From assembly GCF_004761865.1 (NCBI RefSeq), contig NZ_SJDM01000004.1:62001-126000 (forward strand): DNA of 64,000 nt, read 5' to 3'. The notes below the pieces were generated by a model. That model did not search any database. It was not told where the DNA came from and saw nothing but the letters and a program-made list of their open reading frames with translations. Each line of letters opens with the position of its first letter. Within the stretch, counting starts at the first letter, position 1. Shown piece by piece: positions 22,446 to 29,381 of this stretch. A program made the position numbers and the translations under genes. This DNA comes from Crenalkalicoccus roseus. Its GTDB lineage: Bacteria > Pseudomonadota > Alphaproteobacteria > Acetobacterales > Acetobacteraceae.

Positions 22446-25328
22446 TCAGTCCTCCCGCCCATAGGCCGGCGTGCGCAGGCCGATCCGGGGTGCTGCGGTG
22501 GGCGGGCCGGGCGGCAGCGCGGCGTCCTCCGGCGCGTGGCCGCTCCGCTCCGCCCGCTGCTCCACGCGCGCGATGTGCGACAGCGCCAGCACCACCGCCC
22601 CCACCACGGTGAGGAACACCCCGAGGTCGAAGGCCATGGCGGAGGCGAGCTCCACCTCGCCCGCGATCGGCAGGTGGAAATAGCCGAAGGTGCTGGTCAG
22701 GAAGGGACGCCCGAAGGCCCAGGAGCCCATGCCGGTCAGCCCCGCGATCAGCACTCCGGCGCCGATCATGGTCAGCGGCTGCAGCCGGGCGCGGGCGGCG
22801 GCCCAGGCGTGGCCGCTCGCCATGTACTGCATGATCAGCGCGATCGCCGCGATCAGCCCGGCGATGAAGCCGCCGCCCGGCTGGTTGTGCCCGCGCAGGA
22901 AGATGTACGCGGCCAGCGTCAGCGCCAGCGGCAGCAGCACGCGGGTGGCGACCACCAGCATCAGCGGGTGCGCGTCTCCCGAGACCTCGCCCATCCGCAT
23001 CGCGTCGAGGCGCCGCGCCGCGGCGCCGCGCAGCGCGGTGGCGAGCAGGGCGTGGATCGCCAGCGCCGCGATGCCGAGTACGATGATCTCGCCGAAGGTG
23101 TCGAAGCCGCGGAAATCCACCAGGATGACGTTCACCACGTTGGTCCCGCCGCCGCCCGGCTTCGACTGCTCGATGTGGTAGGTGGAGATCGTCTCGAAAT
23201 CCCGCGTCATGGCGGCGAAGGCCAGGGCGGCCGCGCCGAGGCCGGCGGCCGCCGCGATGGCGCCGTCGCGCAGCTTGCGCGCCGTGCCGGGTTCCGCCGG
23301 GGTGGTCTTGGGCAGAAGGTTGAGCGCGAGCAGCAGCAGGATGGTGGTGACCACCTCGACCGAGATCTGCGTCATCGCCAGGTCGGGAGCGGAGAATTGC
23401 AGGAAGGCGAGGGAGACGATCAGCCCCACCACGCTGGTGAGGATCAGCGTCAGCAGCCGGTTGCGGTGCGCCACCGCGAGCCCCGCGCAGGCGGCGACGA
23501 GGATGACCCAGGCGGCGAGCGCCGGGATTCCGGTCGGCTGCACTTCCCGCGCGCCGGGGGCGTGGGTGGCGCCGAGGAAGCCGGCGAGGCCGACGGCGAG
23601 GATGGCCAGCACAATCACGCCGAGGTCGCGCGGCAGCGAGCCGGTGTGCAGCCCCCCGCTCAGGCGCCGCGCTCCGGCCACCGCGGCGGCGACCGTGGCG
23701 TCGAACATCGCCTTGGCCTCGGGGCGCCAGAGGCGGAGGCGTGCGCGCTCCACGTGGTGGATCAGCAGCAGCAGCAGCGCCGCGCCGGCGAAGGCCGCGA
23801 CGCTCATCACCAGGGCGGGGGTGATGCCGTGCCAGAGGGTGAGCTTCACCGGCGGCAGCCCCGCCGGGCCCGCCACCGCCGCCGCGGTCATCTCCACGAT
23901 CGGGCCGGCGAGCGGGCCCGGCAGCAGGCCGATCGCCACCACCGGCACCACCAGCACCGCGACCGGCAGCCAGAGGCCGGGCGGCGGCTCGTGCGGCGGA
24001 TGCTCGAAGGCGGTGCGCGGCCGGCCGAAGAAGGTGCCGAAGACGAAGCGCGCCGAGTAGGCGACGGAGAGCAGGGCGGCGAGGGTGGCGAGCGTCGCCA
24101 CCACCCAGCCATTGCCGGCGAGCGTCGCCTCCGCCGCCGCGTCCAACATCATCTCCTTGGACAGGAAGCCGTTCAGCAGCGGCACCCCGGCCATGGAGGC
24201 GCCGGCGATCAGCGCCAGCGTGCCGGTGACGGGCATCAGCCAGTAGAGCCCGCCCAGCTTGCGGATGTCGCGGGTGTGCGTCTCGTGGTCCACGATCCCC
24301 GCGCTCATGAACAGCGCCGCCTTGAAGGTGGCGTGGTTCAGGATGTGGAACACCGCGGCGATGACGGCGATGCCGGTGTTGAAGCCGAGCAGCATGGTCA
24401 TCATGCCGAGGTGGCTGACCGTGGAATAGGCGAGGATCGCCTTCAGGTCGTCCTTGAACAGCGCGATCCAGGCGCCGACCAGCATGGTGGCGAGGCCGGT
24501 GAGCGAGACGAGGACGAACCAGGCGTCGGTGCCGGCCAGCGCCGGCCAGAGGCGCGCCAGCAGGAACACCCCCGCCTTCACCATGGTGGCCGAATGGAGG
24601 TAGGCCGAGACCGGCGTCGGCGCCGCCATGGCGTGCGGCAGCCAGAAGTGGAAGGGGAATTGCGCCGATTTGGTGAAGGCGCCGAGCAGCACCAGCAGCA
24701 GTGCCGGCATGTAGAGCGGCGAGGCGCGCACCTCCTCGCCGCGCGCCAGGATCTCCGACAGCTCGTGGCTGCCCGCGGCCTGGCCGAGCAGCAGCATCCC
24801 CGCGAGCAGCGCCAGCCCGCCCCCGCCGGTGACGACGAGGGCCATGCGCGCGCCCTGCCGCCCCTCCGGCAGGTGGTTCCAGTAGCCTATGAGCAGGAAG
24901 GAGCTGAGGCTGGTCAGCTCCCAGAACACCACCAGCAGCAGGATGTTGTCGCTGAGCACGATGCCGACCATCGCGCCCTGGAACAGCAGCAGGTAGGCGT
25001 AGAAGCGCCCGATCGGGTCGCGCCGGCCGAGGTAGTGGCGCGCATAGGCGATGATCAGCAGCCCGATGCCGAGGATCAGCCCGGCGAAGAACAGCCCGAG
25101 CCCGTCCAGCATGAAGGAGAAGGACAGGCCGATGCGCGGGACCCACTCGGCGCTGGTGCGCACCACCTCGCCGCCGAACACGGCGGGCGCCTGCGCCGCC
25201 AGGATCAGCAGGGCGAGCAGGGTGGGCGCCGCCGCGGCCCAGGCCGTGACGGTGCGGCTCGAACGGGTGGTCAGCGGCGGCAGGCAGGCGCCGAGCAGGG
25301 GAATCAGCGCGATCAGGGCGAGTGTCAT
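22446..25328 (-). CDS. mrpA: Na+/H+ antiporter subunit MrpA fused to MrpB
   Basis: 960-aa main subunit. The N-terminal two-thirds is a NuoL-like antiporter with about 20 helices, including the core stretch FWELTSLSSFLLIGYW and the lysine-bearing KSAQFPFHFWLPHAM. The C-terminal 150-200 residues form a MnhB domain, recognised by GHNQPGGGFIAGL near residue 830. The A-B fusion (PhaAB type) is usual in alphaproteobacteria and explains why no separate mrpB exists. First gene of mrpAB-C-D-E-F-G-trkA-trkH. The 255 nt upstream are rich in short inverted repeats but show no clear promoter. Confidence 0.95.
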   Translation of the reverse strand: MTLALIALIPLLGACLPPLTTRSSRTVTAWAAAAPTLLALLILAAQAPAVFGGEVVRTSAEWVPRIGLSFSFMLDGLGLFFAGLILGIGLLIIAYARHYLGRRDPIGRFYAYLLLFQGAMVGIVLSDNILLLVVFWELTSLSSFLLIGYWNHLPEGRQGARMALVVTGGGGLALLAGMLLLGQAAGSHELSEILARGEEVRASPLYMPALLLVLLGAFTKSAQFPFHFWLPHAMAAPTPVSAYLHSATMVKAGVFLLARLWPALAGTDAWFVLVSLTGLATMLVGAWIALFKDDLKAILAYSTVSHLGMMTMLLGFNTGIAVIAAVFHILNHATFKAALFMSAGIVDHETHTRDIRKLGGLYWLMPVTGTLALIAGASMAGVPLLNGFLSKEMMLDAAAEATLAGNGWVVATLATLAALLSVAYSARFVFGTFFGRPRTAFEHPPHEPPPGLWLPVAVLVVPVVAIGLLPGPLAGPIVEMTAAAVAGPAGLPPVKLTLWHGITPALVMSVAAFAGAALLLLLIHHVERARLRLWRPEAKAMFDATVAAAVAGARRLSGGLHTGSLPRDLGVIVLAILAVGLAGFLGATHAPGAREVQPTGIPALAAWVILVAACAGLAVAHRNRLLTLILTSVVGLIVSLAFLQFSAPDLAMTQISVEVVTTILLLLALNLLPKTTPAEPGTARKLRDGAIAAAAGLGAAALAFAAMTRDFETISTYHIEQSKPGGGGTNVVNVILVDFRGFDTFGEIIVLGIAALAIHALLATALRGAAARRLDAMRMGEVSGDAHPLMLVVATRVLLPLALTLAAYIFLRGHNQPGGGFIAGLIAAIALIMQYMASGHAWAAARARLQPLTMIGAGVLIAGLTGMGSWAFGRPFLTSTFGYFHLPIAGEVELASAMAFDLGVFLTVVGAVVLALSHIARVEQRAERSGHAPEDAALPPGPPTAAPRIGLRTPAYGRED

Positions 25329-26339: not shown

Positions 26340-26666
26340 GGGGAACTCCCTTCATCCAGGCGAGGAGGAACGAGGCCGGCGGGAGGCGGGCGGGAGATCG
26401 GGCCGGCGGCCGATCCCCGGGCTGCTGGCGGAGGGGGAGGTCGGCGGAAGCGCGGCCGCGGCATGCCGCGGCGGGGGCGCGGCGACGCGCCTGGTGCCGC
26501 GGGGCCTGTCTCGGCGGCGCGTGTCGAGGATCGCATGGCCGGGACGCCGCTCCTCACCCCGGCGCCGGGCCCGTTCCTGGGCGCGCCGGGCAGAGGCTGA
26601 ACGCGCGGCACCGGCGGTCGCGTTCCCGAGGTGGGGGACGGGAATTCGCGCGCCGTCCGGCGCGTC
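26340..26666. other. Intergenic region between the Crp/Fnr regulator gene and the 251-aa gene
   Basis: 327 nt without a supportable gene. It is very GC-rich with several C/G-run hairpins, and the ribosome site of the downstream gene is at its left end. I see no convincing promoter, tRNA or terminator. Confidence 0.5.
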
Positions 26667-27359
26667 TCAGGCCGTGGGCGGCGCGTGGCGGCAGCGGCAG
26701 CAGAAGCGGTGGCAGCCACAGGCCGCCCGTTCCAGCCCCTCCCGGTCGAGGACCAGGATCCGTCCCCGGCGCTGGCGCAGGATACCGGCATCCTCCAGCT
26801 CTCCGACAGCGGTGGTGATGCTGGCGCGGCGGGCGCCCAGGACGTGCGACAACATTGCGTGCGTCAGCCCGAGCTCGTCGCGGCCGAGCTCCCGGCGGGC
26901 CTGGGCGAGCCAGCGGGCCAGGCGCTGGCGCAGGCTGTGCCGCACGGCGCAGACGGTGTTCTGCGCCGCCTGCAGCATGGCGGCGCGGGCATGGGCGAGC
27001 AGGGCGTGCCGCAGCGCCGGCCGCGCCTCGCAGGCGCGCCGCAGCGCCGCGGCGGGGATGCGCATTGCCCGGCCGCCGATCAGGACCAGATGGCGGTAGG
27101 GGCAGGTATGGCCGCCAAGGATCAGGGGTAGCCCGACTAGGCCCTGGGTGCCGACCTGCCACGCCTCCACCTCGTCACGCCCCCCGGCCGGCGCGAGGAC
27201 GGAGACGAGGCCCTCCTCGACGAAGTGCACGTGCAGCATCGGCGCGCCCCGCCAGTGCAGGGTCTGCCCGCTGCGCAGGGCGACCGGCTCGAGATGGGGG
27301 CGCAGCCGCTCTTGCTCCTCCGGGGGCAGGGCCACCAGGAGCCTGTTGCGGTACTCCAT
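26667..27359 (-). CDS. Crp/Fnr-family transcriptional regulator with Cys/His-rich C-terminus
   Basis: 230-aa regulator. The N-terminal cupin (about 15-120) has the cNMP-binding-like fold with LRSGQTLHWRGAP and VEEGLVSVLAPAGGRDE. Residues 125-150 form the dimer helix. The winged HTH shows LGLTHAMLSHVLGARRASITTAVGEL. There are no N-terminal FNR-type cysteines. The tail LERAACGCHRFCCRCRH has five Cys and two His. A CxC at this place is common in alphaproteobacterial relatives, as I recall, but the added CCxCxH is unusual and could bind a metal. Strong ribosome site AGGAGG five bases before the ATG. Confidence 0.9.
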   Translation of the reverse strand: MEYRNRLLVALPPEEQERLRPHLEPVALRSGQTLHWRGAPMLHVHFVEEGLVSVLAPAGGRDEVEAWQVGTQGLVGLPLILGGHTCPYRHLVLIGGRAMRIPAAALRRACEARPALRHALLAHARAAMLQAAQNTVCAVRHSLRQRLARWLAQARRELGRDELGLTHAMLSHVLGARRASITTAVGELEDAGILRQRRGRILVLDREGLERAACGCHRFCCRCRHAPPTA

Positions 27360-27571
27360 GATGCCTCCTCATGCGGTCCGGGGCGTGGCGGGGGTGCCGG
27401 GACCGGCCGGAGGCCAGGATGCGGTGCGGCGCCGCGCGGTGCCGAAAGAACGGCCAAGCTGCACCGCGGCTGCACGCGGCGCCTCGCACCGCGCCCGCGT
27501 CCCATGGGCGGCGTTTCCGGGACGCCGCCGCTGCCCGCTTCGGAGGCCGGATCGGGGCAGGCCCCGCCGCG

Positions 27572-27605
27572 GCATTCAATCATGCCTGCCGCCGGGAGTG
27601 AATGC
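27572..27605. repeat. Inverted repeat in the Crp/Fnr upstream region
   Basis: GCATTCA and TGAATGC, perfect 7-bp arms 20 nt apart, about 215 nt upstream of the Crp/Fnr start and just downstream of the minus-strand terminator at 27645. It could be a regulator site for the Crp/Fnr gene. The rest of 27360-27640 shows only the Shine-Dalgarno and GC-rich direct repeats (GCTGCAC twice near 27468). Confidence 0.35.
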
Positions 27606-27644
27606 CCGGGGGGCGAGGCTGCGCGCTCCTCCGCGAGGTGCGAG

Positions 27645-27679
27645 AAAAATCGGGCCGGCCGGAATGATCCGGCCGGCCC
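27645..27679 (-). terminator. Strong Rho-independent terminator, minus strand
   Basis: Perfect 11-bp stem GGGCCGGCCGG / CCGGCCGGCCC with a six-base loop, followed on the minus strand by G, A and five T. It is the best intrinsic terminator in the window. It lies 200 nt after the nearest upstream stop on that strand (27880), too far for a simple gene end. Confidence 0.85.
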
Positions 27680-27774
27680 GCCGGCAGCCTTCGCAGGCCA
27701 CCAGTCTGACGACGACTTGCCGGGAAATAGCCGCCGTCGGAACGCCGTCCGTCCGGACCCGGAAGGGTATCAGG
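27645..27774 (-). ncRNA. Candidate small RNA of about 130 nt
   Basis: No open frame of interest occupies this stretch. It has a promoter-like sequence just upstream on the minus strand (27781-27809) and ends in the strong terminator at 27645. In between, at least one more stem forms on the minus strand only if G-U pairs are allowed: GGUGGCC / GGCUGCC with loop UGCGAA, at about 27683-27703. That strand bias fits a transcribed RNA. I matched it to no known RNA family; it is not SRP RNA, tmRNA or RNase P by eye. It may instead be a processed 3' UTR of the upstream oxygenase gene. Confidence 0.45.
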
Positions 27775-27780
27775 AACGGC

Positions 27781-27809
27781 TAGAAGGATCCTGGAGCGGG
27801 CAGCCTCAA
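27781..27809 (-). promoter_or_regulatory. Promoter candidate for the small RNA
   Basis: On the minus strand: TTGAGG (27809-27804), 17-nt spacer, CTTCTA (27786-27781), then GCC. The -10 overlaps a CTAG, like several other putative promoters in this window. Predicted transcription start near 27774. Confidence 0.45.
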
Positions 27810-27879
27810 CGGCGGGTGGGAGAAGGCTTAAATCGGCGCAATGCGGGCCGCGCCCCGGGGCGGGGGCGCGGGGCCGGGC

Positions 27880-28617
27880 TCAGCCGGGCGGCGGACCGTG
27901 CTTCCAGGTCAGCACCAGCACGTCGCGGCAGGAGGGGAGGGACGGGTCGGCCGGCCGCACCGGGGTGACGCCGTGCTTGACGCGCGCATCGTCCAGCACC
28001 GCAGTGTCCAGCCGCTCGCGCAGGATGAAGCGGGCGAGCTCCCGCTCCTCCGGGTCGGTCACCAGCGTCTCCCCACCCTCGAGGTTGATGCGCGCGATCA
28101 GGGCGATCAGCACCAGATCCACACCGTCATGGTGCACGCCCTCCGGCGTGGGGTAGCCCGGGGCGCCCGCCTGGGCCTCGATGCGGAACTGATGCATCTC
28201 CACGAACCAGTCGCGGTCCGGCCGGAGCGCTTCCGCGACCCCGCGGCCGAGGCCGAGCAGCCCCTGCACCGGCGCGCTCTCCGCCACCGCCTCCTCGACC
28301 GGGGCGAACCAGCGGTCCACGCCGCCATGCAGGCGGTTGTGCACCACGGACTGGAAATGCGGCCGGTGCGGGTTGCGGATGGTGCGGGCCACTCCCGCGC
28401 GCTGGCTGAAATTGGCGTGGCGGCGGCGGCGGTAGCGCCCGCCATCGGCCATGTGGCGGTCCAGCTCCAGCCGCTCCCAGCTCGCGGCGAAGCCGTCGAG
28501 CTCGGCGGCGGTGCAGCCGAGCCCCGCCGCCATCTCCGCCCCCCGCAGCAGCGCGAAGCCCCGCGCGCGCACCGCCTCGGACAGCGCCGGCGCGAGGGGG
28601 GGCACGGCCGCGCTCAC
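27880..28617 (-). CDS. 2-oxoglutarate/Fe(II)-dependent dioxygenase (DUF2257 family)
   Basis: 245-aa protein of the 2OG-Fe dioxygenase family that includes free amino acid hydroxylases such as L-isoleucine 4-hydroxylase. Seen: the iron motif HxD in VHHDGVDLVLIALIAR, with GGETLV after it, and the distal LDDARVKHGVTPV, where His is the third ligand. The start is GTG at 28617, fixed by a GTGA overlap with the stop of the upstream Fe-S gene. The substrate is unknown; a small amino acid is likely from family precedent. It is the last gene of timA-mltA-CCG protein-oxygenase. Confidence 0.85.
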   Translation of the reverse strand: MSAAVPPLAPALSEAVRARGFALLRGAEMAAGLGCTAAELDGFAASWERLELDRHMADGGRYRRRRHANFSQRAGVARTIRNPHRPHFQSVVHNRLHGGVDRWFAPVEEAVAESAPVQGLLGLGRGVAEALRPDRDWFVEMHQFRIEAQAGAPGYPTPEGVHHDGVDLVLIALIARINLEGGETLVTDPEERELARFILRERLDTAVLDDARVKHGVTPVRPADPSLPSCRDVLVLTWKHGPPPG

Positions 28618-29381
28618 GACGCATCCCCGATCGGCGGCGCCTCGGCGGTGCCGCCGGCCAGCACCTCGGCGACATGGCGCACCCGCACCGGCGCGCCCTC
28701 CCGCTTCAGCCGCCCGGCGATGTTCAGCAGGCAGCCGAGATCGCCGGCGAGCAGCGTGTCGGCGCCGCTGGCGGCGACATCCCTCGCCTTGTCGGCGACC
28801 ATGCGGGTGGAGATGTCCGGATACTTCACGCAGAAGGTGCCGCCGAAGCCGCAGCACAGCTCGGGGTCCTTCAGCTCGCGCAGGGTCAGCCCCTGCACGG
28901 TGCCGAGCAGCCGGCGCGGCTGCGCGCGGATGCCCAGTTCGCGCAGGCCCGAGCAGGAATCGTGATAGGCCACCACCCCGTCGTAGCGCGCCGCGACCCG
29001 CTCCACCCCCATCACGTCGGTGAGGAAGGAGACGAGCTCGTGCGTCTTCGCTGCCAGCGCCTCGGCCCTGGCGCGGTAGTGCGGGTCGTCGGCGAACAGG
29101 CCCGGATAGTGGCGGATGATCATGCCGCCGCAGGAGCCCGAGGGCACCACCGTGTGGTCGTAGGGCAGGAAGTCGTCGATCACCCGCCGCGCCAGGTCGC
29201 GGGTGGTGGCGCGGTCGCCGCTATTGTAGGCGGGCTGGCCGCAGCAGGTCTGGCCGCGCGGCACCTCCACCGTGCAACCCGCTGCCTCCAGCAGCCGGAT
29301 GGCGCTGAAGCCGACGGCCGGCCGGTAGAGGTCCACGAGGCAGGTGACGAACAGGGCGATGCGCGGCCGGTGGAGGGGCAT
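28614..29381 (-). CDS. (Fe-S)-binding CCG-domain protein, LutA type
   Basis: 255-aa protein with two CCG domains, as in LutA/YkgE and the C-terminal half of heterodisulfide reductase B. Seen: TCCGQPAYNSG near residue 45, HDSCSGLRELG in the middle, and LCCGFGGTFCVKYPD near 175. Such proteins carry electrons from L-lactate or glycolate oxidation. LutB and LutC partners are not adjacent. It starts 4 nt after mltA and overlaps the oxygenase gene by GTGA, an unusual coupling. Confidence 0.9.
   Translation of the reverse strand: MPLHRPRIALFVTCLVDLYRPAVGFSAIRLLEAAGCTVEVPRGQTCCGQPAYNSGDRATTRDLARRVIDDFLPYDHTVVPSGSCGGMIIRHYPGLFADDPHYRARAEALAAKTHELVSFLTDVMGVERVAARYDGVVAYHDSCSGLRELGIRAQPRRLLGTVQGLTLRELKDPELCCGFGGTFCVKYPDISTRMVADKARDVAASGADTLLAGDLGCLLNIAGRLKREGAPVRVRHVAEVLAGGTAEAPPIGDAS

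Follow-up and report, generated by a model that had tools for sequence, protein, structure and literature searches.

A predicted small regulatory RNA family with an invariant UCCCGGC loop in Acetobacteraceae

Comparative analysis of a 64-kb window (the whole 64,000-nucleotide stretch of the Crenalkalicoccus roseus genome studied here) points to a conserved RNA element on the minus strand, which appears to be a member of a small regulatory RNA family not in Rfam 15. The interpretation we favor, with moderate confidence, is that of an sRNA gene running from about 27808 to 27645 on the minus strand, driven by a conserved upstream block and acting in trans through a UCCCGGC hairpin loop. An independent sRNA gene is supported by the combination of covariation, conservation in changing neighborhoods, and the conserved upstream block. 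The original prediction was an sRNA that has its own promoter, ends in a strong terminator, and belongs to no recognized family. On sequence evidence, the conserved element is real and stands on firmer ground than that prediction could provide; the sRNA gene, the terminator, and the lack of a known family are supported, whereas the proposed promoter and 5' end are replaced. The features of the locus, all on the minus strand, are as follows.

27880 to 28620, minus strand: 2OG-Fe dioxygenase gene (PF10014, by Pfam match), upstream of and outside the RNA gene
27798 to 27845, minus strand: conserved upstream block, presumed promoter or regulator site
27842 to 27838 (ATTGC), 27832 to 27826 (TTTAAGC), 27820 to 27816 (CCCAC), and 27810 to 27804 (GTTGAGG), minus strand: elements within the block
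27804 to 27810, minus strand: GTTGAGG, the conserved downstream part of the block and likely transcription start region, with a putative +1
27743 to 27785, minus strand: variable hairpin of the 5' domain, helix 1 of the consensus (covariance models R1 and R2 match 27785 to 27642)
27708 to 27738, minus strand: hairpin 1, with the invariant loop UCCCGGC at 27725 to 27719, identified by loop conservation and a covarying stem
27681 to 27704, minus strand: hairpin 2, 10 bp with G-U pairs and loop GCGA, seen in the folds, helices 5 and 6 of the consensus
27645 to 27680, minus strand: intrinsic terminator, 13-bp stem with loop UCAU and a U tract, found by terminator scan, helix 7 of the consensus (96.9% of cells paired)

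The predicted fold of the minus strand is better than those of 200 of 200 shuffles (z -4.49). The plus-strand fold is weaker (z -3.07), and one of 200 shuffles is equally good. In particular, the internal stem with G-U pairs, which had been expected on the minus strand only, is located at 27704 to 27681 in the minus-strand fold and is absent from the plus-strand fold. Hairpin 1 is present both in the initial minus-strand fold and in the fold of the window RNA from the proposed start, which also retains hairpin 2 and the terminator. The 5' domain is the least certain part, because in the fold from the proposed start it is paired unlike in the consensus; several genera have a shorter version of this variable domain or none. 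The terminator hairpin (27680 to 27651, minus strand) is strong and followed by a T run (ATTTTT), as predicted, but comprises 13 pairs rather than 11. It is the single terminator-like site between 26400 and 29200, a region in which 0.3 sites are expected in shuffles. The distance of 200 nt to the nearest gene end also stands, the oxygenase ORF ending at 27880.

A DNA search of 60 relatives identifies clear Acetobacteraceae homologs from five further genera, all retaining the hairpins and the terminator. One of these genomes (G034) has the same upstream genes as the window; the other first homologs adjoin different genes. The covariance model R1, built from the window and five relatives (six sequences), matches 117 of 397 Acetobacteraceae genomes at E<=0.01. 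A second model, R2, matches 103 of the 397 when the threshold is set to E<=1e-4, and these matches are spread over 28 of 102 genera, although some matches below about 45 bits in this list may be terminators only. There is one R2 match per genome except in G125, G292, and G379. The element adds to Acetobacteraceae a predicted structured RNA family that has an invariant loop and is nearly always single-copy; the literature searched, judged by titles and the starts of abstracts, yielded no sRNA studies of Acetobacteraceae. The loci inspected, 92 in total (58 in a first set and 34 in a second), were picked from the stronger model matches, and the remaining matches lie outside the counts of 58 and 92, as do L125 and L127, two matches without the loop that were removed before all counts. 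The exact core is found in Siccirubricoccus, Roseococcus, Belnapia, Roseicella, Paracraurococcus, Paeniroseomonas, Rubritepida, and Acetobacteraceae MAGs. Three of 23 exact-core stretches (L132, L133, and L146, from an Oscillospiraceae MAG, a Pseudomonas, and a Bacteroidales bin) are attributed to chance, as inspection by eye reveals neither a terminator of this kind nor an RNA comparable to the one here. Among genomes of the class, R2 matches 28 of 385 at E<=0.001, own genome included, with scores of at most 42.1 bits outside Acetobacteraceae, and TCCCGGC is absent from all 19 matches examined there. A model of hairpin 1 alone, R3, matches 24 of 308 class genomes at E<=0.1, own genome included, which is about chance level, and its best score outside Acetobacteraceae is 28.5 bits. 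Neither these searches nor those with RF02353 (below) demonstrate spread beyond Acetobacteraceae.

The alignment of 58 loci, fitted to the covariance model, has 93.1% of cells paired. Stem-preserving changes in related genomes, the check attached to the original prediction, are found in 40 of 43 pairs, which are changed on both sides. The covariation score is 0.400, compared with 0.183 for shuffled and at most 0.095 for slid alignments; for hairpin 1 in a MAFFT alignment of 35 sequences that was not fitted to the model, eight of ten pairs carry double changes and the score is 0.448, compared with 0.288 after shuffling and no more than 0.199 after sliding, and such scores can be inflated by kinship between rows. 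All seven loop positions are invariant in 58 of 58 loci, and identity in the adjoining stem columns falls to 0.52. As in the seed of a trans-acting sRNA, UCCCGGC is conserved (91 of 92 loci), predicted to be unpaired, and carried on a variable stem. The sole altered loop, TCCCGGAGG, belongs to L177 (G254), which also lacks the upstream block and is possibly a decaying copy.

In the mechanism we propose, the block would presumably drive minus-strand transcription of an RNA of about 160 nt, predicted to fold into a variable 5' domain, the hairpin with the UCCCGGC loop, a second hairpin, and the terminator. The exposed loop would pair with GCCGGGA-like mRNA stretches, probably located in or close to G-rich ribosome-binding sites; this pairing would change translation or stability of the target mRNAs. 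A similar mode of action is known from the C-rich-loop sRNAs LhrC and Rsa of Gram-positives, in which an unpaired loop UCCC pairs with G-rich ribosome-binding sites; the loop UCCC is likewise unpaired here, but the phylum is different and the targets here are only proposed. We searched four genomes for the exact loop complement TGCCGGGAAA and obtained 62 sites, 30 of them with loci. Three of the 30 loci are the RNA itself, and no conserved ribosome-binding site was recognized by eye among the 30. The complement occurs 26 times in G111, 14 times in G023, and 19 times in G035, compared with 3, 2, and 4 times for the reversed control, and 3 times in the window's own genome (G000), compared with 3 for the control. 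It is thus about 5-9 times commoner than the reversed control in the first three genomes and not in G000. Some of the sites are coding, for example in P-loop NAGKS codons.

The absence of a conserved target among the loci examined in these four genomes would also be expected if the RNA is real and its loop binds a protein, as a sponge or a sensor, instead of mRNAs. An invariant, predicted-unpaired loop is equally expected from protein recognition. However, the loop contains no GGA or other protein-binding signature known to us, and it is present once per RNA, unlike in known protein sponges, which often have several copies of their site. We consider protein binding unlikely, though a serious alternative to mRNA pairing.

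An EM motif search identifies the upstream block in 55 of 58 loci, with the ungapped consensus aTT[G/A]C-N6-TT[A/C]AGC-N5-CCCA[T/C]-N6-G[A/T]GAGG. With a threshold of 18 bits, the block is detected in 82 of 92 loci and missing in 10; of the 34 loci outside motif training, 27 have it. In 344 kb of DNA from the 58 loci, 55 sites exceed 18 bits, and each of them is where the block is expected (training sites included). The window block scores 49.6 and is the sole site above 15 bits in the 64-kb window. A TTAAG-form pattern has a single match in the window's genome, at the RNA; its reversed control also has one match. The conserved block, as presumed promoter, and the intrinsic terminator would fit an independent transcription unit.

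The block is presumably the promoter of the RNA. The original prediction had placed a promoter at TTGAGG-17-CTTCTA. Both hexamers are there (27809 to 27804 and 27786 to 27781, separated by 17 bases), but a promoter role is not borne out: a consensus scan of 26400 to 29200 gives no sigma-70-like site, the hexamers falling under the scan threshold, and the first five relatives to be aligned do not conserve the supposed -10 box CTTCTA. TTGAGG is conserved, not as a -35 element but as the downstream part of the longer block. Therefore, the putative start is placed at 27810 to 27804, and the conserved element further upstream suggests that the RNA likely begins near 27808 rather than near 27774. 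The distance between the TTRC and CCCAY parts of the block is roughly that between -35 and -10 elements, and the block may resemble the promoter of a heat-shock-like sigma factor. It matches no promoter class that we recognized, and the upstream regions of hsp20 yielded too few matches for a meaningful comparison. The ChvI motif TTGC-N3-GCAA (PMC9731502) does not match the block by eye. With the model, the block, and the loop defined, direct tests of targets, regulator, and start site become feasible.

The genes beside the RNA differ among loci. Of the 92 loci, 53 have an Oxidored_q6 gene downstream of the RNA, on the opposite strand, and 25 have DUF1489 upstream. A relative of the 2OG-Fe dioxygenase seen in the window was found in 7 (upstream and on the same strand in 6 of those); these counts are lower bounds, as 34 of the 92 loci have only about 1.2 kb of flank. 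Therefore, the RNA and the block stay intact while their neighbors change. Because an oxygenase relative was found in only 7 loci, read-through from the oxygenase gene is unlikely to be the main source of the RNA. A large membrane protein encoded in the window (22446 to 25328, minus strand) resembles, by eye, an MnhA/NuoL-type subunit; it clusters with genes that adjoin the RNA at other loci.

In 11 of 92 loci (L073, L074, L098, L068, L113, L122, L123, L173, L175, L117, and L179), the block and the RNA flank an ORF for a basic peptide of about 68-91 aa. The genomes are G335; G011; G262, G371, G016, G409, G384, G228, and G355; G379 and G285. L177 and L183, which have an ORF and no block, are left out of this count. 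In the 11 loci, the distance from block to loop is 326-441 nt, and the ORF stops 21-53 nt ahead of the loop. The peptide has a hydrophobic N-terminus resembling a signal peptide, a basic tail, and a final glycine, and is probably secreted. The four peptides tested against Pfam gave no family over the cut-off. The peptides of g17/g4/g12 and g119 may be homologous, which is suggested more by layout than by sequence. Since the ORF sits between the block and the hairpin, the RNA would form the 3' end of the peptide mRNA in these sister lineages. Where the block is present and the peptide ORF is not (71 loci), block and loop are 49-218 nt apart (49-110 nt in 66 loci and 130-218 nt in 5), and the longest ORF starting after the block and stopping before the loop is 0-33 aa.

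These 71 loci bear on the possibility that the element is only the 3' end or terminator of an upstream mRNA, that of the oxygenase here and of the peptide gene elsewhere, with a role in termination or stability in cis. The terminator is strong, and the hairpin is directly 3' of an ORF in 11 of 92 loci. Yet a terminator does not need the invariant loop upstream of it, the upstream genes differ from locus to locus, and the 71 loci without the ORF have the conserved block ahead of the loop, which makes a purely cis-acting 3' end rather improbable. Chance stem-loops in GC-rich intergenic DNA are a very improbable source of the element: terminator stems alone give R2 matches of up to 42.1 bits outside Acetobacteraceae, but TCCCGGC is in 0 of 19 of those, covariation, invariant loop, and conserved block are all present here, and in 1.07 Mb of other DNA (both strands) only 16 of 263 CCCGGCA sites lie in hairpin loops, of which the 3 with a T run are all members of the RNA family.

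The peptide ORF may indicate how the RNA gene arose. An RpoB tree covers 28 genomes, of which 10 have the ORF and 18 lack it; G011, with no RpoB match, and G164, with a partial match, are not included. The ORF label requires six changes on this tree, all forced by starred branches. The ORF has thus been gained or lost at least six times on this tree. The label is only somewhat clustered (shuffled mean 8.4 changes; 32 of 500 shuffles as low). Neighbors on the tree, G262 with the ORF and G337 without it, have nearly identical RNAs. Repeated loss of the ORF with retention of the RNA is the simplest reading, because many independent gains of a similar ORF at one place are hardly to be expected; exchange between species may also have produced the pattern. 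Tentatively, we consider it quite plausible that the loci form a series of conversions from mRNA to sRNA, in which an ancestral transcript carried the peptide and a regulatory 3' hairpin, the ORF was deleted several times independently, and the promoter and hairpin were kept. Each deletion would leave a pure regulatory RNA, with remnants of intermediate length still visible; G218, from the group with 130-218 nt spacing, has a remnant-like ORF of 33 aa. Close relatives with and without the ORF provide a test set for the origin of free sRNAs from mRNA 3' ends.

The RNA was compared with known sRNAs. As originally noted, no known RNA family is recognized: Rfam 15 gives no match at the gathering score in the 64-kb window or in 18 homologous loci (105 kb). 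Other than BjrC68 (below), low-threshold matches such as PtaRNA1 (26.4 bits) and CrfA (25 bits, plus strand) are read as chance or terminator-driven. The CcsR loops of Rhodobacter sphaeroides, CCUCCUCCC, differ from UCCCGGC. CcaF1-CcsR1-4 is described as sRNAs and a small ORF on one precursor transcript (PMC8307010) and CcaF1 as a small RNA-binding protein (PMC10253847). The cotranscription of a small protein gene with sRNAs is like that proposed at the peptide-bearing loci, but CcaF1 is described as RNA-binding whereas the peptide here has a signal-peptide-like start, and the peptide ORF is absent from most loci. Caulobacter ChvR is described as an sRNA that is transcribed from its own promoter and pairs through stem-loops (PMC6237742). 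It is likewise an alphaproteobacterial own-promoter sRNA, with no sequence relation noticed in a comparison made only via Rfam.

The Bradyrhizobiaceae sRNA BjrC68 (RF02353) has a likeness in layout, being short, with ACCCGGCAA in a hairpin loop followed by a terminator, and may be homologous to the RNA here. Sub-threshold BjrC68 matches are found in three of three homologous loci tested (L109, 14.5 bits; L106, 17.7 bits; L100, 14.1 bits), all far below the gathering score of 39 bits. The 13 matches listed at E<=10 for 27500 to 27900 of the window do not include BjrC68, and a search of the window's own genome with RF02353 is negative at E<=0.01. Of 385 class genomes, 65 are matched by RF02353 at E<=0.01, one of them over the cut-off (G753, 101.6 bits). 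CCCGGC occurs in 5 of 30 RF02353 loci examined and, by eye, is in such a hairpin loop only at the over-threshold locus. On that locus, R2 scores 33.0 bits (501-base stretch, filters off), which is weak because terminators alone reach 42.1 bits with R2, and R3 scores 13.1 bits. BjrC68 and the RNA here share CCCGGCA, but they have different stems and their loops are offset by one position, and the BjrC68 locus is without the upstream block (best score -27.4). At the over-threshold locus (L295, 1501 to 1612, minus strand, in an 8-Mb genome), the hairpin has the loop ACCCGGCAA, and a further 5' hairpin upstream is aligned by R2 to its own, so that the layout is as in the RNA here. L077 and L079 (g28) have a variant hairpin with the loop ACTCCCGGCAAC, which is closer to the BjrC68 form than those of the other loci.
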